Below, piece by piece: positions 4,953-18,132 of a stretch of DNA of 32,027 nt (position 1 is the first letter of the stretch; each line of letters begins with the position of its first letter). The notes under the pieces are model-generated. The model was given only the letters and a program-made list of their open reading frames with translations. It was not told the DNA's origin and did not search any database. Position numbers and translations under genes: made by a program. This stretch comes from a virus, in IMG/VR virus record IMGVR_UViG_3300024317_000013, positions 1-32,027 of that record. One strand, written 5' to 3'.

Positions 4953-5177
4953 ATGTCGGCCAACCAAATGGAGATGAAATTGACGCCCGAAGTAGTCAAC
5001 CGCTATGGAACCGTGAACGGTTGCGACGTGCACAACCGCGTCTCGTGCGAGCGTTGCACGAGCTTGACGCCTAAGCAAACCGCCTACAATCTCCGCACTC
5101 GTAAGCTCGTGCCGACTGGTGACGCCCAGAGGGATAGACTCGTGCGGGCTAAGCTCGCAGTCAGGAGCGACCGATAA
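4953..5177 (+). CDS. Small putative zinc-finger protein, 74 aa (start uncertain)
   Basis: This is the first gene of the rightward accessory operon. The sequence contains GCDVHNRVSCERCTSLTPKQ, with a C-x2-H followed by C-x2-C, a plausible single zinc site, and then a basic segment (NLRTRKLVPTG). An ATG at 4953 and an in-frame GTG at 4941 are both possible. Neither has a ribosome binding site, so translation may be leaderless or start at a downstream TTG (4980) that does have GGAG nearby. The stop TAA overlaps the next ATG (TAATG), which supports the reading frame. No named family is recognised; a small nucleic-acid-binding role is possible from the basic character. Confidence 0.68.
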   Translation: MSANQMEMKLTPEVVNRYGTVNGCDVHNRVSCERCTSLTPKQTAYNLRTRKLVPTGDAQRDRLVRAKLAVRSDR

Positions 5178-5443
5178 TGTTTGCGCCACGAGACTACGTA
5201 ATCGCGTGTCACGGATGCGGAAACATTCGGAGCGAGCGGACCGCCTTTCTAAGTGCGGCTTTATCCCTAGGCGCGACACGCGGCGACAAAACGTATTGTG
5301 TTCCCGCGCTCGCGTGCGACGACTGCAAGGCGATTCCGGGGCGCATCCGTTCTGCCTTCGATAACGGTCCTTCTGCTGATGCGCGGGCGACGTTTGACGC
5401 CCAGCTAGACGGTTGGCTAACGCGCATCGAAGGGGACCGCTGA
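5177..5443 (+). CDS. Small zinc-ribbon-like protein, 88 aa
   Basis: The ATG is part of a TAATG overlap with the preceding stop and has AGGAG nine bases upstream. Two Cys pairs, CHGC (residues 11-14) and CDDC (47-50), are separated by about 32 residues with an intervening TYCVPALACDDC strand. This gives a likely zinc-ribbon or treble-clef fold. The C-terminal half is a helix-prone acidic/Ala-rich segment (SADARATFDAQLDGWLTRIEGD). It probably acts with the adjacent zinc-containing proteins of this operon, but its function is unknown. The stop TGA overlaps the next ATG (TGATG), another sign of coupled translation. Confidence 0.72.
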   Translation: MFAPRDYVIACHGCGNIRSERTAFLSAALSLGATRGDKTYCVPALACDDCKAIPGRIRSAFDNGPSADARATFDAQLDGWLTRIEGDR

Positions 5444-5667
5444 TGTCTCGTCAAGGCGTATCGCTTGCCGATGTCTTCACCCGCTGTTCAAGTCAACATC
5501 TCTTAGGCGAGCTTGCCCAGGAGTGCCGCGTAATCGTCCACCGTGCCGAGCGCGCACTTGGACCGCTACCGAAAGCCTCATACGTTGACTTGTGCGCGGA
5601 CAATATTGCGCATGCGTCGATTGCCGACATTAAAGCCGCGCTCGTGGTTGCGGGAGTAGGGTACTAG
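5443..5667 (+). CDS. Hypothetical protein, 74 aa
   Basis: The ATG at 5443 shares bases with the upstream TGA and has AAGGGG seven bases before it; an earlier in-frame start at 5413 lies inside the previous gene and is rejected. The protein is helical throughout. It reads SLADVFTRCSSQHLLGELAQ, then VIVHRAERALGPLPKASYVDL, then IADIKAALVVAGVGY, with no Cys pairs or catalytic signature. One base separates it from the following large gene, so it is firmly in the rightward operon. Function unknown. Confidence 0.7.
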   Translation: MSRQGVSLADVFTRCSSQHLLGELAQECRVIVHRAERALGPLPKASYVDLCADNIAHASIADIKAALVVAGVGY

Positions 5668-5668
5668 C

Positions 5669-7336
5669 ATGCCGTTTTTCCTTCACGTCAAAGGCGTTAC
5701 GGAGCGCGCCCTGCTCGATTACTTCGATGCGCTACCGCCGTCGGATTTTACCGTGCACTCACAAAGCGCAACGTTTCCGCTACTGTGGCCGATATTGCAG
5801 GTATTCCGCACGAGCGAGCTTGCCGATGAAGGCGCAAGTGATTACCGCGCCGATGTCCCGTTATGGGCTTGCTCACAGACGTGTCCGGCATGCTGTTACG
5901 AGCACTGGGCAGACCGTTTCAATACACCGTCGTATCGTGCGACTGATGAAGACCGCGCCCGCATCCGTAAGGCTATGGGCGAAGACGCGCCATCACCCCC
6001 GCTTGCGCCGTACGTGAGCGTACATCCAACCGCTCAGCTTGCGCGGGAAGCACTGGAGCGACAACTACCGCCGTCGGCCTATACGGTGACGTTCGCCGCT
6101 ACCGCTCAGGAGATTAAGACATATCGGGAGCGAGAATCCAACCGATGCGCTCGGCAGGGTATCGCCGGATGTCAGGTTCTGCCGTGGGCTGATTTGGATT
6201 GGCAGGTAGAACTAAACAAGGCGCACTTTGCCTTTCTGTCAGTCACCTTTCCCGGCAAAATCAGCTATACACCGTCACACGAATGGGGCGTAACGGACCG
6301 TCAATTGAGTGTCCGGCCCGGGCGCTACCTTGAACAGTTTGCGCCTTCGCTGAGCGCCCGTGAACGTGATGAGCTGTGCGCGCAAGTTAAGGCAGCAAAC
6401 GACCGTAACGCAACCAAGTACGCCACAACCGAGTCAGATGTGGTGCGCGTCTACCGCGAAGGTCCAAACTCGTGTATGTCGCACGCACCTCGCACGTATG
6501 CGTCAAGCTCGCATCCGGCAATCGTCTACGCGCAGTCTCCTGACTTGCAACTTGCGTATCTCGGCACACTGGGCGATTACGACGACAAAATCCGCGCTCG
6601 TGCGCTCGTGTGGCCGGACCGTAAAATACACTCCCGCGTCTATGGTGACGAGACGTTGCGAATTTTGCTGGAGCGCGAAGGGTATCGCAAGGGCGACGTA
6701 TTCGGCGCTCGTGTGCGCGCACTCGTAGACGAGAACCACGAGGACGCCTATATCATGCCCTTCGTAGACGGTTGCGGTTGGGCTAAGCTCGTAGACAAAG
6801 GTAAGCATTTTCAGTTTGTTGAGGATACGGACGGCGGAGATTACGAGTGCCAGAACACCAACGGCTTAACCGACGGCGGTATCTCTAGCCAAGAGGGTAC
6901 CGACGACGACGGCGACGATTACGAGACGCACTTTTGCGCGCACTGCGGCGATAACGCGGTAGACGACGCAGGCGACGAGTGCCAACGGTGCGACGACATG
7001 CGCTACTCGTGCGCGCACTGTGATGAGGTATTCCACGACCAGAACCCAAGCGGGATAGACAACTACGGTGTGGTTTGTGATGACTGCTATGGCAACCTAG
7101 AGCGCACCTGTGACGAGTGCGACACGAGCTATTACGCCGAATCGATGAATCGCGCCACGATTGCCGAGCGCAAAGAATACGGCGCTACGCATTTGTGCGG
7201 AGACTGCGGCGAGACGTTCATTGCAGACGTGAAAGCCGCCAACATTATCGAAGCGGATAACGTCCGACGTGCCGCCATCTGCTACGCCTTGGAAACCGCC
7301 CTGCAAACCAATTCGTTTCGTGGAGACGCTGAATGA
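5669..7336 (+). CDS. Conserved phage protein with C-terminal multi-zinc-ribbon region, 555 aa
   Basis: The largest gene of the accessory operon, starting at an ATG with AGGG seven bases upstream. An N-terminal CPACC (about 73-77) precedes a central domain. A segment beginning GPNSCMSH (about residue 270) runs through YLGTLGDYDDKIRARALVWP and SRVYGDETLRILLEREGY to AYIMPFVDGCGW. I recognise this arrangement from unnamed proteins shared by many phages; no activity is known to me. After an acidic linker (EGTDDDGDDYE), the last 140 residues contain six CxxC knuckles (CAHC, CQRC, CAHC, CDDC, CDEC, CGDC), enough for about three zinc ribbons. That makes protein or nucleic-acid binding plausible. Its stop overlaps the next start (ATGA), so it is probably made together with the metallopeptidase that follows. 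Confidence 0.85.
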   Translation: MPFFLHVKGVTERALLDYFDALPPSDFTVHSQSATFPLLWPILQVFRTSELADEGASDYRADVPLWACSQTCPACCYEHWADRFNTPSYRATDEDRARIRKAMGEDAPSPPLAPYVSVHPTAQLAREALERQLPPSAYTVTFAATAQEIKTYRERESNRCARQGIAGCQVLPWADLDWQVELNKAHFAFLSVTFPGKISYTPSHEWGVTDRQLSVRPGRYLEQFAPSLSARERDELCAQVKAANDRNATKYATTESDVVRVYREGPNSCMSHAPRTYASSSHPAIVYAQSPDLQLAYLGTLGDYDDKIRARALVWPDRKIHSRVYGDETLRILLEREGYRKGDVFGARVRALVDENHEDAYIMPFVDGCGWAKLVDKGKHFQFVEDTDGGDYECQNTNGLTDGGISSQEGTDDDGDDYETHFCAHCGDNAVDDAGDECQRCDDMRYSCAHCDEVFHDQNPSGIDNYGVVCDDCYGNLERTCDECDTSYYAESMNRATIAERKEYGATHLCGDCGETFIADVKAANIIEADNVRRAAICYALETALQTNSFRGDAE

Positions 7337-8331
7337 CCCCGGAATTAAACCGTCTAATCGAGATGCACACGTACAAACGCCCTGCCGGGAGTCGGCACGA
7401 GCGGAAGTTTATCAACCGCTACCTCGTATCCGCCGGTTGCGTGTCCGATGCGTTTGGTAACTATTCACTCGTGGTTGGCAATCGGCCTGATGTCGTGTGG
7501 AGCACACACACTGATACCGTGCACAAAGTGACCGGACGCCAACGTGTCTACCTGGAATCCGACGGCACACTCGGCACGCACGGAGGTGACTGCTTAGGCG
7601 CCGACGATACTGCGGGTGTGTGGTTGCTGTGCGAGATGATTCGGCGCGGAGTGCCGGGGCGGTATCTGTTCCACTATGGTGAAGAAAGAGGTTGCATCGG
7701 TTCCCGCTCGCTCGTGGCAAGTTCGCCCGTGTGGTTGGCCGATGCGCGCATGGTGATTGCCTTAGACCGCAAGGGAACCGGCGACGTAATCACGTATCAG
7801 TGTGGGAATCGCACTTGCTCGGATGACTTTGCGCACGCAATCGCGGACCAATTGAATGCTCAGGGCATGTGCTACGAACCGTCCGACTGGGGCATGTTCA
7901 CTGACAGCGAGTCTTACGCCGACGACGTAGCGGAGTGCACCAATCTGAGTATCGGCTATTCAGGCGCACACTCGGCACGCGAAACACTCGATACGCGGCA
8001 CGCGCTCGCTTTGCTGGATTGTTTGTGCGCGCTCGATACGTCGATCCTGCCGATTATTCGCACTCCCGGCGATACCGATGGCACGCAAGCGCTCGTACTG
8101 GAATATCTCACCAATGAAGATATCGCCGACGACGACGACACACGCCCAGTCGCACGCACTCCGCTCCATTGGTGCCGTGAATGCGGCGCGGACATCACGC
8201 ATGCGTGGCAATCGGTCTGTTGGGATTGCGGGTGTGATGACCCTATCGACGTAGTAGGCGAACGTGATTTCATTGATAGTGCCTTCGCCCGGGCGCAGAC
8301 CGCGTTACGCGCCCAGGTGAAAGGTAAGTGA
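7333..8331 (+). CDS. M20/M28-type zinc metallopeptidase-like protein with C-terminal zinc ribbon, 332 aa
   Basis: The start overlaps the previous stop (ATGA) and has GGAG seven bases upstream. The protein carries what looks like the full co-catalytic metal set of the M20/M28/M42 peptidase clan. H59 and D61 lie in STHTD, and D91 in LGADDTAG. E117-E118 lie in HYGEERG, D145 in IALDRKG, and H213 in YSGAHSARETLD. These families are two-zinc exopeptidases or deacylases acting on peptides and amidated compounds. At 332 residues it is short for M20 with its dimerisation domain, closer to the catalytic core. C281-C284 and C296-C299 form an added zinc ribbon absent from typical members. A phage-encoded enzyme of this type might process a host peptide or signalling molecule. 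Catalysis is inferred from motifs; substrate unknown. Confidence 0.82.
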   Translation: MTPELNRLIEMHTYKRPAGSRHERKFINRYLVSAGCVSDAFGNYSLVVGNRPDVVWSTHTDTVHKVTGRQRVYLESDGTLGTHGGDCLGADDTAGVWLLCEMIRRGVPGRYLFHYGEERGCIGSRSLVASSPVWLADARMVIALDRKGTGDVITYQCGNRTCSDDFAHAIADQLNAQGMCYEPSDWGMFTDSESYADDVAECTNLSIGYSGAHSARETLDTRHALALLDCLCALDTSILPIIRTPGDTDGTQALVLEYLTNEDIADDDDTRPVARTPLHWCRECGADITHAWQSVCWDCGCDDPIDVVGERDFIDSAFARAQTALRAQVKGK

Positions 8332-8588
8332 TGACAATGCGCGTTCGCTACGTAGTCCGACGGCTCGATACGCATGCGAAGAATGTGACGTTCGGCCAAT
8401 GGTGCCGAATGACAGACTTCGATACCGCACAACAGGCGTTCGCCTTCATTGGCCGCGCTCAGGGCGTCACGCAACGGCTCAAGATGTTCACGGAGTTTAT
8501 CGACGTGCCGGTATTACATAAACACACCACAGAACAGCAACCGAATGGTTGCGTAATCCCTAGCAATCGGAAGGACACGCGCTCGTGA
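8331..8588 (+). CDS. Hypothetical protein, 85 aa
   Basis: The ATG at 8331 overlaps the previous stop (TGATG) and has AAAGG six bases upstream; a GTG one codon earlier is possible. The sequence begins with a beta strand (MRVRYVVRRLD) and contains a helix-prone segment (FDTAQQAFAFIGRAQGVTQRLKMF). It ends in a polar, probably flexible tail. The pattern, a strand then a helix with an aromatic core, resembles small phage proteins that carry a transposed single-domain fold. I do not recognise a family. The stop lies next to a gap of about 80 bases before the next convincing gene. Confidence 0.68.
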   Translation: MTMRVRYVVRRLDTHAKNVTFGQWCRMTDFDTAQQAFAFIGRAQGVTQRLKMFTEFIDVPVLHKHTTEQQPNGCVIPSNRKDTRS

Positions 8589-8669
8589 CGGCTCGCGCTA
8601 ACCGCCTTGCGTATCAAGCACTTATGATGCGTATTATCCTTAGCCAATCAACCAATGATGGGAGAATCC

Positions 8670-8885
8670 ATGAAACAGCGGGAGACCAAGATACGCGCAA
8701 ATTCGGCACGCGCTCCAGCAACCGCCGACGATATTCTTATCATCGAAGCATTGCGCATTGCGAAAGCAGAGGTGATAGCGGGCGCCGATGCGCTGGAGAA
8801 ATTGTGGCCGTCGTCTCCGCTCGTAGAACGGTTGCGCGTATTCGCGGATGAATTTGCAGACCTTCAACGCCGGTATCAACAGTAG
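8670..8885 (+). CDS. Small helical protein, 71 aa
   Basis: The ATG at 8670 follows GGGAG with about five bases spacing. The product has a basic N-terminus (KQRETKIRANSARA). It is followed by helices with clear hydrophobic spacing (DDILIIEALRIAKAEVIAGADALEKLW and LVERLRVFADEFADLQRRYQQ), consistent with a coiled-coil or helical hairpin. An overlapping frame from 8585 to 8851 reads Arg/Ser-rich through this region and is judged a shadow. The interval 8589-8669 holds no gene I can support. Function unknown; probably the penultimate gene of the rightward accessory operon. Confidence 0.68.
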   Translation: MKQRETKIRANSARAPATADDILIIEALRIAKAEVIAGADALEKLWPSSPLVERLRVFADEFADLQRRYQQ

Positions 8886-8919
8886 TCGGGCAATGACGCC
8901 CAGTCAGAGGGAGAATCGC

Positions 8920-9108
8920 ATGTATATCATCAAAGGCAACCTCATCACCTTCAACGGCTCCGTTGTCAACGTCTACGTGACTGCCGACGGTGTGAGCTTG
9001 CATCAGCGTGATGCGCGCCGATACGACAACGCCGGTGACGCGGTTGCCGATTGCGCGCACGGGTTCCGTGTCGTGTCGCTCGTGCCGAAGCGCTACACCG
9101 ACGACTAG
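8920..9108 (+). CDS. Small beta-rich protein, 62 aa
   Basis: The ATG at 8920 has GGGAGA five bases upstream; the open frame extends to 8848 but the extra residues overlap the previous gene. The product starts with alternating beta strands (MYIIKGNLITFNGSVVNVYV) and continues with a helix (DNAGDAVADCAHGFRVVSLV) and a short charged end. The fold looks like a minimal beta-alpha-beta domain. No motif or family is recognised. It is the last gene before the strong terminator at 9124, so it closes the rightward accessory operon. Confidence 0.72.
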   Translation: MYIIKGNLITFNGSVVNVYVTADGVSLHQRDARRYDNAGDAVADCAHGFRVVSLVPKRYTDD

Positions 9109-9123
9109 CACGCACTCGCCCAG

Positions 9124-9163
9124 GGCGCCGATACTCATACGCGAGTGTCGGCGCCTTTCCTTT
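9124..9163 (+). terminator. Rho-independent terminator of the rightward accessory operon
   Basis: GGCGCCGATACTC pairs with GAGTGTCGGCGCC over 13 positions (one G-U) around a 6-base loop, followed by TTTCCTTT. It lies 15 bases after the stop of the last gene in the operon. Confidence 0.9.
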
Positions 9164-9807: not shown

Positions 9808-10314
9808 CTAGTTATGCATCGTGGCTGCGGTCGCATAGATGGACGGCCATTCCGCGAGGAACACCCCCAGGCACGTCCACTTCGTGCCGTGGAGGTAGCG
9901 GGCGTGTTCGCGCAGGGTGCCAGTGAGGACCGCTGCCACGCCCTCCGCGTAGCAGTCACCCTCCTCCGCATTGACCCAGAAGGGCTGATGCGTGTGGCCC
10001 GCCTCATGGGTCAATACGTCGTAACGCGCATCCCAGGAGAGGCTGCTATCGATGGCGATGGCATGCTCCTCAAAGGAGGTCACCCCGTAGACGCGCTGGC
10101 CGTCCAGGTAGAGGGGCGTCCCGTAGACGACGGTGAACCCCAGCCGATTGAGCCGCACGCCCAAGTCGCCCACATCCCAGTAATGGTCATTCGTGGTGAC
10201 CACACGAGTGGCTCCCGGAAACACGACGAACATCTCTGCGCTCAAGGCCATGATGCGGTATGGCAGAATGGACAGGAGAATCGCTAACCCCGCACCCAGA
10301 ATCGCGTTCTTCAC
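9808..10314 (-). CDS. Membrane-anchored HEAGH zinc metalloprotease-like protein, 168 aa
   Basis: GTG 10314 overlaps the previous stop (GTGA) and follows AGGAG by seven bases. Residues 5-24 form a hydrophobic signal-anchor or signal peptide after a Lys. The mature part contains HEAGH (103-107) and, 17 residues further, E124 in GDCYAEGVA. This is an HExxH-plus-Glu zinc site as in gluzincin-type peptidases. It would act at or outside the inner membrane. A cell-wall or envelope-protein substrate during entry or lysis is plausible, as is maturation of the neighbouring hydrolase. The rest of the sequence (residues 40-100) is beta-rich and unfamiliar. No lipobox is present. Peptidase assignment rests on the motif; the biological role is inferred from the neighbouring genes. 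Confidence 0.75.
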   Translation of the reverse strand: MKNAILGAGLAILLSILPYRIMALSAEMFVVFPGATRVVTTNDHYWDVGDLGVRLNRLGFTVVYGTPLYLDGQRVYGVTSFEEHAIAIDSSLSWDARYDVLTHEAGHTHQPFWVNAEEGDCYAEGVAAVLTGTLREHARYLHGTKWTCLGVFLAEWPSIYATAATMHN

Positions 10315-13749: not shown

Positions 13750-15354
13750 GTGGCGTACAAGAAAACCGTGCGCCTCCCACCCGGATGCGGAGATGCGCTC
13801 AGCGAGCCGTACCTGTACAACCCCTACATTCACGGGGAGGATGGCTTCTTCGCCGCGCTCCGCAAGCGGGTCTGCCTGACGTGCAAGGTCATTGGGAGCC
13901 ATGACGACTTCGGGCAGTTCATCTGCCCCAAGTGTGGGGCCGTCAGCACGTCCAATCTCGCGGCACCCCGCGCATTCAATCGATTTCTCCTCCTCGCCGG
14001 TCGAGGCGGCGGCAAGACACTGGCCGGTGCTCACGCCGTGCGCCAAGAACTGATGATTCCCGGGTCCATCTGGTGGGCGATGGGGCCGACGTTCAAGATT
14101 CTCCACGACTCAACCTTCCCCACACTCATCAAGCTCATCAATCCGGACTGGGTGGAGTCCTGGAGCGAGGAGCACATGGAGTTGCGCCTCAAGAACGGCT
14201 CCATGGTCGCGTTTCGGTCGCTGGAGGACCCGGAGCGCGCACGCGGACCCCATGGTATCAGCGGCGGCTGGCTGGATGAGGCCGCGCAGTCACCGGAACG
14301 CGCCTACGACGTGTTTGAACCGACGCTCATCAAGGCGGGCGGCATCATCATCGCGTCCACAACCGTGTTGGGCTACGACTGGACCTACGACAAGATTGAA
14401 AAGCAAGCCCTCGTCTACAAGGAGCCGGGATACTGGACCACGCGCTGGTGGACGGAGGAAAATCCCCTGTTCCGCAGCAACCCGGTGATGCTCGCGTCGA
14501 TTGAGCAGGCCAAGCGCAAGATGGAGCCTGCGTTCTACGCGCAGGAATACAAGGCTGAGCGCCGGAATGCCACGGGGCTCGTCTACGACTACTCGCTGTT
14601 GGAGCGGCAGACCCTCCTCAACGCGGAACAGGTCAAACAGTTCATCCCGGAGTGGCCTGCGATTGACCCGAGTCGCCCCGTTATCGTCGGACTCGACTCC
14701 GGCGCGGACCATCCGTTCGGCGCAGTGATGATTGTTGCCACGCCCAAGGGCATGGTCGCTGTCGGTGAATACCTGGAACGCCAGAAGGCCATCTCACAGC
14801 ACATTGGGCCGATTGCGCTGAAGTTCGGCTTGGGCCGCTTCACCAACGTGCGGTGGGCCGCGAACAAGAACGAAGCGAACCTCCGGCTGGAGTTCGGGCT
14901 GAAGGGCATCGGCGTGATGCCAGCGGAGAACAAGCACGAGATTGGTATTCAGCGGGTCCAGTCCTGGCTGTATACGAATAAGCTGTTCTTCGCGTATACC
15001 GTGCCGAACACCATCGAGCAGATGCGGGCGTATCGTTACGCCAACAACTCGAAACCGGACGGCACGAAGAAGGCCAAGGAAGAGGTCTTCAAGTTCAAAG
15101 ACGAACTCCCCGACGGCGTGCGCTACGCGATGATGGCATGGCCGGAAATTCCGGAAGCGGAAGAGGTCACCATGACTCAGACCCAGCAGCAACGCTGGGA
15201 CGCCATGCCGGATGACGTGAAGTTCGACATCGAGCGCATGCGCGAGTATCACAAGCGCGAGACCCAGGGCGCAGACCTGGAAGAGACCGACGCCAGCTAT
15301 CCGCTGGGCGGTATGTTCAACCCGATAGACGAGGGACACGGCTATGTGGATTAA
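13750..15354 (+). CDS. terL: Terminase large subunit (packaging ATPase/nuclease), 534 aa
   Basis: The motor that translocates DNA into the procapsid and cuts concatemers. The ATPase shows Walker A GRGGGKT (84-90) and Walker B GGWLDEA with D176-E177. A coupling motif IIASTT follows (199-205). The nuclease domain starts with a strand and acid, VGLDSGADHPFG (D316). A C-terminal DGVRYAMMAW (about 454-463) is typical of the last nuclease motif region. Length is normal for the family. Unusually, residues 42-62 carry CLTCK...CPKC, a zinc-ribbon insertion ahead of the ATPase core. The GTG start has AAGGG seven bases upstream. It follows the small terminase candidate and overlaps the next gene by 11 bases. 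Identification is strong; the packaging type (cos or headful) cannot be told from sequence alone. Confidence 0.95.
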   Translation: MAYKKTVRLPPGCGDALSEPYLYNPYIHGEDGFFAALRKRVCLTCKVIGSHDDFGQFICPKCGAVSTSNLAAPRAFNRFLLLAGRGGGKTLAGAHAVRQELMIPGSIWWAMGPTFKILHDSTFPTLIKLINPDWVESWSEEHMELRLKNGSMVAFRSLEDPERARGPHGISGGWLDEAAQSPERAYDVFEPTLIKAGGIIIASTTVLGYDWTYDKIEKQALVYKEPGYWTTRWWTEENPLFRSNPVMLASIEQAKRKMEPAFYAQEYKAERRNATGLVYDYSLLERQTLLNAEQVKQFIPEWPAIDPSRPVIVGLDSGADHPFGAVMIVATPKGMVAVGEYLERQKAISQHIGPIALKFGLGRFTNVRWAANKNEANLRLEFGLKGIGVMPAENKHEIGIQRVQSWLYTNKLFFAYTVPNTIEQMRAYRYANNSKPDGTKKAKEEVFKFKDELPDGVRYAMMAWPEIPEAEEVTMTQTQQQRWDAMPDDVKFDIERMREYHKRETQGADLEETDASYPLGGMFNPIDEGHGYVD

Positions 15355-15694
15355 CCGAGCGGAGTACGCGGACCTGATTGACAAGGCGGTGCGGGCGCAA
15401 GGCGAGCGAGACGCCATGCAGCGCCAAGTGGACGCGCAGAAGACCAACCAGGAATGGATGGTGCTGCGGCTCACCCAACTGGAGCACGAACGGGCTGCGC
15501 TCATCTACCGCTATATGGATATCAAGATTACGACCCCGGAGATTTCGCTCGACGTGCCCGTGACGCCGGAGTCGGCCTCTATCGGGAACGACCTCCCCTC
15601 CTTCGATGATGTGGGGGATGAGGAAGCGAAGAAACTCGGTCTTGGCTGGGACGTGGATGGCCGCGTCACGCAGCACGGAAAGGCGATTAGCTAA
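15344..15694 (+). CDS. Coiled-coil protein between terminase and portal, 116 aa
   Basis: The ATG has GAGGG eight bases upstream and overlaps the terminase gene end by 11 bases. The stop TAA overlaps the portal start (TAATG). The N-terminal 55 residues form a long helix with heptad-like spacing (AEYADLIDKAVRAQGERDAM and QRQVDAQKTNQEWMVLRLTQ), probably a coiled coil. The rest is a flexible acidic tail. Small coiled-coil proteins are common at this point of phage head operons and may assist portal or terminase assembly, but no function is known for this one. A capsid-assembly accessory role is inferred from position only. Confidence 0.75.
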   Translation: MWINRAEYADLIDKAVRAQGERDAMQRQVDAQKTNQEWMVLRLTQLEHERAALIYRYMDIKITTPEISLDVPVTPESASIGNDLPSFDDVGDEEAKKLGLGWDVDGRVTQHGKAIS

Positions 15695-18132
15695 TGGCGA
15701 TGGACTCTCTCTCACAGCCGTTCCAGATTGCGCAAGACGGGCGCAACCGGGATGCGGCGAAGGCGGCAGCGCTCGCCATTCCCAAGGAAGACGAAGGCAT
15801 GCTGGAGACTGACTCCCCGTTCTCCGACGAGGAGTTGCTGGAACTCTGGCAGCAAATCAAACGGGAGACCGTGGACACGCAGTGGGTGTTCCACCGGCAG
15901 TGGCAGCGAAACATCTGGTACATCCTCGGGCGGCAGTGGATTGAGTATCAGGCGCGGTACGGCGGCTGGCGCGACAAGCGCATGGCCGCGTGGATTCCGC
16001 GTCCTGTCACGAACAAGTGCAAGGAGACGGTGCAGGCGATTCGTGCCATGTTCACCAGCATTGCGCTCAGCGTGAACATCCGGCCCAACGGCGACGAGCC
16101 GGAGAACATTGCGACAGCGGCGACGGCAGACGACCTCGCGGTCCTCCTGCATGAAGTCCACAACATGTCGCAGCGCATGAGCGAGTTCGACTTCTGGCTG
16201 TGCGCGACGGGGAATGCGTTCCTGCACACGTTCCTCGACTACGATATCAAGTACGGTCTGCTCACGATTACCTCGGAGCAGTGCGCGGCCTGCGGTACGG
16301 TCACCGAGTCCGACAAGCTCACGGGTGCGCAGCCCGAGTGCCCGGATTGCGGCGGCACGCAGTTCACGAAGGCGACGGACCCGCTCACCGGAGAGCCCAT
16401 TCCGCCGCGACAGGAAGTGAAAGGCCAGCCGATGACGATTGCGTTGTCGCCGCTGGAGTTCATCTTCCCGAACAACTACATCAGCTTCTCCGATATCCCG
16501 TATGGGGTCCGGGGCCGCTGGCGTACACGGCGCTACTACGAGTCGCAGCCGCACCTGAAGGATGTCGTCGCCAATGTCAAGTGGCAGAAGGCGCCCTCGG
16601 ACCACGCGCTGGCGCTGTATACCGGGTTGGCTCAGATGAACGACCTGGGCATGACCTCCGGATACGGGCTGGACGGCAGTGGGCGCGGTTCGCACGACAA
16701 CGATGGCGTCTCCGAATACGAAATCTGGATGAAGCCGTCGGACAAGTATCCGGAAGGGCTCGTGTTCCGGGTCATCCAGGACGAGTCGCCCATCATCGTG
16801 CATTCGGAAGAGACCGAAGGGCTCCCCGGCGTGCTTCCCTATAAGGATGCGCAGGGCCAGCCGCTCTTTACGTTTACGCATGCGACGTTTGAGCATGTGG
16901 GCGGGCGTATCCTCGGGTCAGGTCCGCTGGATGTCATCATCCAGAAACAGGACCAGTTGAACCAGTTGGATTCGCACACGCTCCTGTGCCTCAGTCGCAC
17001 AGCCAATCCGGTTATCCTGGAGCCCAAGGGCGCGGAAATTCAGCGCATGACGGGCATGCCGGGTGCAGTGTGGAAGTGGAATCCACTTACCGTGGGTGGA
17101 CAGGCCAAGCCGGAGCGCTGGCCCGGGATTCCCATCGACGCCAGCATCATGCAGTTGCGGGAGCAGTATCTCCGCGACATCGAGGAGTTGGCCGGGACGT
17201 TCGACATCCTGAAGGGCATGAAGCCCGCGGGCGTCGAGGCGTTCAGCGCGTTGCAACTCCTGGTTGAGCGTTCGCAAGCACGGTTCTCGTCGGTGTTCCA
17301 GTCACGCGGGAACGCCTACAAGGACTGGGTGAAGTTCGCGCTGGAGCTTGAACGGGCCTATGGGCCTGACGAGCGCACCCAGGCGGTCCTCACACCCGCA
17401 CGCAAGTGGACGTTCCAGACGTTCAAGCGAGCGGACCTTCGGGGCAACGTGAGCGTGGTCGTGGAAGACGGCAGCACGATGCCGAAGACGAGTCTGGGAT
17501 TGCGCGCTGCGGTGGAGCATGCGAACGGGCTGGGCCTGCTCAACATGCACGACCCGGACGTGCAGTACAAGGCGCTCCAGTTGTTCGGGCTGAGCAAGAT
17601 GGTCCCGACGCTGGACATTCACATGCAGGCCGCGCTCCAGAAGCAGGATGCGTTCCAGAAGTGGGTGGTCAACAAGGCCGTGGTGAACGCCGCAGTCGCC
17701 ATTGCGCAAGAGCAGCAAGTGGTGTACGAGGACGCATTGTCCAAATGGAACCAGACGACCTCGCAGCAGTTGGCCGGAAGCACGGACCCGTCGAGTCCGC
17801 TGCCCGCGCCGCTGCCGATGCCGCCGCCTCCCCCGTCGATGTTGGATGGGACGCCGCTCAAGTGGCAACCGTGGTACAACGCACAAATCCACTTGCAGGA
17901 GTTCTTGAAGTGGGCGAACGACGACGCCATCCGGCAACTGATGGTGCAGAACCCGGTCGTTGAGCAATTGCTCCGCATGCACATGCAGGAGATTGTCGCC
18001 GCGATGCCGGTGCAAACGGAACTCGCACCGCCTCCCCCGACGCCACAGGGTGCGGGGATGGCGATGCGAAACTCTAACAAGAACTCGGCTCCCGCGAAAG
18101 TGGCCGGGAAGGAAACCCCAGCGAAAGCGTAA
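15694..18132 (+). CDS. Portal protein, 812 aa
   Basis: The dodecameric ring at the capsid vertex through which DNA enters and leaves. The assignment rests on position after the terminase, size, and motifs. Examples are WIPRPVTNKCKETVQAIRAM (100-119), LIKYG-type beta turns, DVIIQKQDQLNQLDSHTLLC in the central stem, and a helical C-terminal third. Residues 197-219 hold two CxxC knuckles (CAAC, CPDC), a zinc-ribbon-like insert. About 705-725 is Pro-rich (SSPLPAPLPMPPPPP). 812 residues is large, within the range of podovirus portals. The start is ATG at 15694 (TAATG with the previous stop); an ATG two codons later is also possible. A stretch of TTGACT/TATACT promoter-like sequence follows the stop. 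Confidence 0.85.
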   Translation: MAMDSLSQPFQIAQDGRNRDAAKAAALAIPKEDEGMLETDSPFSDEELLELWQQIKRETVDTQWVFHRQWQRNIWYILGRQWIEYQARYGGWRDKRMAAWIPRPVTNKCKETVQAIRAMFTSIALSVNIRPNGDEPENIATAATADDLAVLLHEVHNMSQRMSEFDFWLCATGNAFLHTFLDYDIKYGLLTITSEQCAACGTVTESDKLTGAQPECPDCGGTQFTKATDPLTGEPIPPRQEVKGQPMTIALSPLEFIFPNNYISFSDIPYGVRGRWRTRRYYESQPHLKDVVANVKWQKAPSDHALALYTGLAQMNDLGMTSGYGLDGSGRGSHDNDGVSEYEIWMKPSDKYPEGLVFRVIQDESPIIVHSEETEGLPGVLPYKDAQGQPLFTFTHATFEHVGGRILGSGPLDVIIQKQDQLNQLDSHTLLCLSRTANPVILEPKGAEIQRMTGMPGAVWKWNPLTVGGQAKPERWPGIPIDASIMQLREQYLRDIEELAGTFDILKGMKPAGVEAFSALQLLVERSQARFSSVFQSRGNAYKDWVKFALELERAYGPDERTQAVLTPARKWTFQTFKRADLRGNVSVVVEDGSTMPKTSLGLRAAVEHANGLGLLNMHDPDVQYKALQLFGLSKMVPTLDIHMQAALQKQDAFQKWVVNKAVVNAAVAIAQEQQVVYEDALSKWNQTTSQQLAGSTDPSSPLPAPLPMPPPPPSMLDGTPLKWQPWYNAQIHLQEFLKWANDDAIRQLMVQNPVVEQLLRMHMQEIVAAMPVQTELAPPPPTPQGAGMAMRNSNKNSAPAKVAGKETPAKA

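Follow-up and report, generated by a model that had tools for sequence, protein, structure and literature searches.

A lid-less M20-like phage metallopeptidase and its near-obligate partner gene

Introduction

Does a metallopeptidase gene that overlaps the gene of a larger CxxC-bearing protein in a phage genome encode a working enzyme, and do the two proteins act together? The question is raised by one IMG/VR record of 32,027 bases, the whole of which is referred to here as the window. Matches to portal, head, terminase and internal virion proteins suggest that it derives from a podovirus-like phage. The original prediction for this locus held that an M20/M28-type metallopeptidase (P0001) with an apparently intact metal site and an added zinc ribbon is coupled to a multi-zinc-ribbon protein (P0002), and that the two might form a unit directed at a peptide, signal or defence factor of the host. 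The features on which this argument turns are collected in Table 1.

Table 1. Features of the peptidase and partner genes and of the DNA that follows them (positions in the window)
Feature	Position	Strand	Basis
Partner gene P0002, 555 aa: conserved core domain and C-terminal zinc knuckles	5669..7336	+	
Partner core domain, about residues 195-402: S268-C269-M270, Y287, R311, Y325, P364, D367, G399	6251..6874	+	
Partner zinc-knuckle tail, six CxxC, residues 423-513	6935..7207	+	
ATGA stop/start overlap, partner P0002 / peptidase P0001	7333..7336	+	
Peptidase gene P0001, 332 aa, lid-less M20-like (clan MH) metallopeptidase	7333..8331	+	
Peptidase catalytic domain, residues 1-245	7333..8067	+	AF2 model, VIA fold match, ligand conservation
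Peptidase C-terminal CxxC...CxxC zinc ribbon: C281-x2-C284, C296-x2-C299	8173..8229	+	
Three small ORFs 3' of the peptidase with 4-nt overlaps: 8328-8588, 8585-8851, 8848-9108	8328..9108	+	
Terminator-like hairpin, strong, 15 bp stem	9122..9157	+	consensus scan alone

An intact dizinc site in a peptidase without a lid

The peptidase reading frame is real. P0001 matches PHROG 4191 ("peptidase") over its catalytic domain (residues 5-249, E 6.5e-70) and scores 24.8 bits against Pfam Peptidase_M28, above the gathering cut-off of 21.3, in a match confined to residues 54-173. An AF2 model built on a 77-sequence alignment has block mean pLDDT values of 87-98 over residues 1-250, falling below 50 in the poorly modelled residues 263-311, which include the C-terminal ribbon region. 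A chance reading frame is excluded by these matches, by the confidence of the model and by its resemblance to solved peptidases at a Z of 26. The metal-binding set proposed earlier (H59, D91, E117/E118, D145, H213) is present, and each of these residues, like D61, is kept in 100-101 of 101 non-redundant relatives, the exceptions being gaps. The clan MH residues were also invariant in alignments with 10 phage relatives and then with 76 IMG/VR relatives. By analogy with their roles in clan MH, H59, D91, E118, D145 and H213 would be the metal ligands, E117 the general base and D61 an orienting residue.

The predicted fold agrees with this assignment. In the VIA comparison, the best solved match of the P0001 model is the PepT-like tripeptidase 3rza (Z 26.2, 231 residues, 2.3 Å), so that the expected catalytic fold of a dizinc peptidase is found, followed by 3gb0 (Z 25.8) and then by M42 and other M20 enzymes, and no AAP-type M28 structure is present among the best 50 structural rows, although P0001 may still be of the M28 kind. 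Judged from its conserved ligands and its model, P0001 is probably an active M20/M28-type dizinc hydrolase with an intact site, as had been proposed. The model aligns, however, to the catalytic domains alone of the M20 and M42 enzymes. In all but one of 101 relatives, D145 and H213 are separated by 62-70 residues, a stretch too short to hold the lid/dimerisation domain that is inserted in typical dimeric M20 members and that the single-domain model likewise lacks. P0001 is, therefore, called here a lid-less M20-like clan MH peptidase and not a canonical M20 enzyme. The missing lid matters because DapE from which the lid domain has been deleted retains an intact dizinc site but loses its activity (PMC4012986).

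The C-terminal ribbon of the peptidase, which the original prediction had stressed, exists but does not define the protein. Two CxxC knuckles at this end are found in only 2/101 relatives, indicating that the ribbon is an accessory, and its candidacy as the key feature was rejected. It looks like a local habit of this phage, since the terminase TerL (13750-15354; residues 42-62) and the portal protein (15694-18132; residues 197-219) carry CxxC...CxxC ribbons as well. A small ORF at 5177-5443 likewise has a zinc ribbon, pointing to multiple zinc-ribbon insertions within one phage.

A partner with a conserved core and variable tails

The description of P0002 as a multi-zinc-ribbon protein accounts for its seven CxxC knuckles, six of which lie in the tail, but misses its conserved part, a separate core domain of about 200 residues to which the ribbons are appended as variable tails. 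P0002 matches phrog_6980 (E 2e-11); it matches no Pfam family, and its 78 aligned relatives match none consistently. Across 79 partner sequences, C269, Y287 and R311 are invariant, and S268, M270, Y262, D292, Y325, G346, P364, Y365, D367, G399 and C423 are nearly so, a pattern of conservation that suggests an enzyme-like core. The tails, in turn, contain from zero to ten CxxC knuckles among relatives, and in two megaphage partners they hold DnaJ-type CxxCxGxG arrays, whose DnaJ central domain matches fall below the curated cut-off. Comparison of the P0002 sequence with the PDB yielded weak LIM/zinc-finger matches to the tail only.

The core was modelled by AF2 with pLDDT mostly above 90. Foldseek found no significant match to it among solved structures, and its significant matches in BFVD are uncharacterised phage proteins. 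In a second look with VIA, the best 50 rows were all of the GNAT type (RimI, Eis2, RibT, FemX, MprF, ATE1), at Z of 4.6 or less. Homology to GNATs by sequence was rejected, as hhalign scored the core against a GNAT profile (RimI and Mesorhizobium GNATs) no better than against 28 control families; similarly, no GNAT Pfam family occurs among the 25 matches listed for 79 partner members. On inspection, an R-x-Y-G-D segment lies ahead of the matching helix, and the canonical acyl-CoA loop Q/RxxGxG/A is not evident. A GNAT-like fold of the core is thus weakly suggested by the comparison of models, and "GNAT-like" is treated here as a lead and not as membership, given the low Z, the Foldseek result and a profile score at the level of the controls. 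A separate GNAT gene near the pair was also considered and rejected, being found in only 2/20 records.

Two genes that are kept together

The ATGA overlap that had been reported between the 555-residue reading frame and the peptidase gene is confirmed, and the coupling extends far beyond this phage. Among the 81 IMG/VR loci reached via the peptidase, the partner core gene lies within the locus at 76, and at the remaining 5 the contig breaks off no more than about 1.6 kb from the peptidase. Conversely, at 38 of 39 loci reached via the core motif alone the peptidase follows immediately downstream, while the 39th locus is truncated by the end of its contig; the motif was drawn from a close subset of relatives, and the two sets of loci overlap by about a dozen contigs. 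A scan of 84,980 genomes of bacteria and archaea with one narrow pattern gave two hits, a lower bound for bacterial chromosomes, both in Mesorhizobium contigs that each have both genes; one of these contigs, which seemingly is also in IMG/VR, contains two pairs. In records of sequenced phages, the counts for the two proteins are 230 and 229 for Klebsiella, 10 and 10 for Escherichia, and 4 and 4 for Shigella phages. The distance from the partner stop to the peptidase match has a median of 4 nt (117 pairs).

Pairing persists where the genes are no longer arranged in this way. Their order is reversed in Cellulophaga phage Calle_1, a nearby partner lies on the opposite strand at loci L015, L035, L040, L060 and L070, the partner gp1 of Thermus phage P23-45 is about 30 kb from the peptidase gp56, and in the 635-kb genome LR745206 more than 200 kb separate the partner homolog with the highest score from the top-scoring peptidase. 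As the association is kept with reversed order, on opposite strands and across 30-200 kb, it is more than operon inheritance, and the idea that the two are chance neighbours was rejected. Distances within the two families are correlated (Mantel r 0.72, 0 of 999 permutations), to which shared descent contributes. The pairing is near-obligate, and a co-occurrence test set beforehand did not refute the proposed two-protein unit.

The two genes are not always present in equal numbers. Partners outnumber peptidases at L015, L035, L038 and L069 and in three of the four megaphages (LR745206, LR756501, LR756502 and LR756504; 634-735 kb). One of these four equals in size a 735-kb genome reported as the largest of any phage (PMC7162821) and may be identical with it. 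Each megaphage encodes 4-8 peptidases and 5-15 partner domains, with tandem arrays of partners, and four megaphage peptidases lie within 1 kb of a partner, compared with a mean of 1.0 under random placement (P 0.017).

Some individual loci depart from the simple arrangement. L038 (449-4390) has three tandem partner genes followed by one peptidase, the middle copy reading SCV instead of SCM and perhaps being degenerate. The peptidase of L136 (6169-7176) is split into two ORFs, likely by a frameshift or sequencing error, and one peptidase copy of LR756501 (666811-667881, L198) has 13 in-frame stops within the match and is, therefore, interrupted or degenerate. At L009, a stand-alone NFACT-R_1 protein (5098-5487, E 1.5e-16) is encoded between a capsid-like gene upstream and the megaphage peptidase downstream. 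In 13 loci, such as L022 and L006, a large gene lies directly 3' of the peptidase, which in the tested representative, L022, is rIIA-like. A partnership with an amidoligase gained no support, Amidoligase_2 occurring in 0/52 records in a search made without a positive control.

What the pair might do

The explanation preferred here, with a probability of roughly 0.4, is that P0001 and P0002 constitute one functional module of many tailed phages, in which the partner selects or modifies a substrate and the peptidase cleaves it. Because very diverse phages keep both genes, the two proteins probably work as a single machine by which a particular protein or peptide is altered or degraded in the infected cell. 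We infer complex formation, transferase chemistry and a target: the tail of the partner would recognise the substrate, likely a protein or peptide of the host or of a rival phage, and the core would position it or perhaps modify it covalently through acyl or aminoacyl transfer, after which the lid-less peptidase, alone or completed by the partner, would hydrolyse an amide bond in it. A partner that acts as selector fits best with the near-obligate pairing, with a hydrolase that is intact but devoid of a lid, with an enzyme-like partner that has variable tails, and with the expansion of partners, an excess of partners over peptidases fitting several substrate selectors per hydrolase. The genes around the pair are otherwise variable and point to no pathway, which counts against this explanation, as does the weakness of the resemblance of the core to GNATs. 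There is a real chance that the pair is a new system; more doubtful, though conceivable, is the broader notion of a widespread, previously unrecognised phage system of protein or peptide modification coupled to cleavage, in which a new transferase-like family would tag or select diverse targets for a lid-less dizinc hydrolase, and a dozen or more selectors in the largest phages would be the outcome of an arms race, be it against the host or against competing phages.

A serious alternative, although unlikely to be the correct one, is that the partner has no catalytic role of its own and is the lid or specificity subunit, which would dock on P0001 and supply the active-site contacts that a lid normally makes; the complex would then be an exopeptidase or deacylase with a dedicated task. 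Against this, M28 enzymes need no lid to work, the invariant or near-invariant Cys, Arg, Asp and Tyr of the partner core are more typical of a catalyst, and partner copies often exceed those of the peptidase. What lends the idea its weight is the combination of the short D145-H213 spacing, a model that matches M20/M42 catalytic domains only, the near-obligate pairing, and the inactivity of DapE once its lid is deleted (PMC4012986).

Two other explanations are less likely. As the nearest solved relatives of P0001 are PepT and other tripeptidases, it might serve as a PepT-like tripeptidase that recycles amino acids from degraded host protein, next to a functionally unrelated neighbour; an unrelated neighbour would not be co-retained in very divergent phages, even unlinked, and 4-8 peptidases per megaphage look like diversification and not housekeeping, rendering this quite improbable. 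A role in the particle, in which both proteins would either be packaged and enter the cell along with the DNA or act in assembly, processing a virion or envelope protein, is improbable as well. It is prompted by Klebsiella phage fHe-Kpn01, for which the record notes that both gp12 (the partner) and gp13 (the peptidase) were verified by LC-MS/MS in purified particles; within gp02-gp23 only these and gp14 are so noted, and primase, helicase and polymerase are not. Yet the particle list also includes scaffold, RNA polymerase, endonuclease, spanin and endolysin, which makes carry-over likely, and the authors concede that some detected proteins were merely carried over (PMC7291057). Both proteins are thus produced, and may be either packaged or carried over. 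Furthermore, the early region, ahead of the primase, is where the pair is located in phiM1-like and KP34-like phages, which argues against a particle role; in phiM1-like phages, the peptidase alone of six conserved early ORFs has an assigned function (PMC6115819).

Relation to known systems

Taken alone, the peptidase belongs to an already annotated phage family. The PHROG 4191 peptidases of Klebsiella KP34-like, Pectobacterium phiM1-like, Vibrio and Thermus P23-45 phages share its ligands and lid-less architecture; P0001 adds the C-terminal zinc ribbon, and the annotations found do not connect peptidase and partner. What is new is its place in a near-obligate two-part module whose second component is unclassified. 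With M20B peptidase T and tripeptidase (3rza, 3gb0), it has in common the catalytic fold and the dizinc ligands (Z 26, 2.3-2.4 Å, 230 residues), but it is only about 20% identical, is without the lid/dimerisation domain and has a near-obligate partner. M28 enzymes, which are single-domain members of clan MH, have no lid, and P0001 has none either; its match above the Pfam gathering score spans part of the domain, however, and M20 and M42 enzymes head its structural comparison. The SCM core domain of P0002 recurs in phrog_6980 proteins such as KpV48 gp08 and, as a distant relative, P23-45 gp1, whereas the tails differ.

The pair as a unit was not found described in the literature, in which subscription journals were little covered, and PADLOC models match neither P0001 nor P0002. 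The nearest parallel in function is Rac of phiKMV, a podovirus GNAT that provokes cleavage of the host RNA polymerase alpha subunit, the protease being an unidentified host enzyme (PMC7552054). The likeness, an acyltransferase-type protein and the proteolysis of a host protein, is an analogy of working alone: Rac can be recognised as a GNAT, possesses an acetyl-CoA pocket and has no sequence link to P0002. Annotations of the peptidase exist for hundreds of phages, among them Klebsiella phages that are under consideration for therapy, and the retention of the pair from Thermus phages to 735-kb megaphages, where it is amplified, points to a general phage function, of which the literature covered yielded no assay. 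With a clear partner, two short genes and harmless hosts such as Thermus and laboratory E. coli, this function is directly testable.

Downstream of the pair

The three small ORFs that follow the peptidase gene are apparently in the same transcription unit as P0002 and P0001 and are outside the conserved pair; the first of them, 8328-8588, has no Pfam match. The hairpin beyond them would, from its sequence, terminate the unit. Further downstream, on the opposite strand (9808-10314), an ORF of 168 residues with a hydrophobic N-terminus carries a HEAGH zincin motif and weakly matches phrog_1233 and the DUF6782 metallopeptidases.
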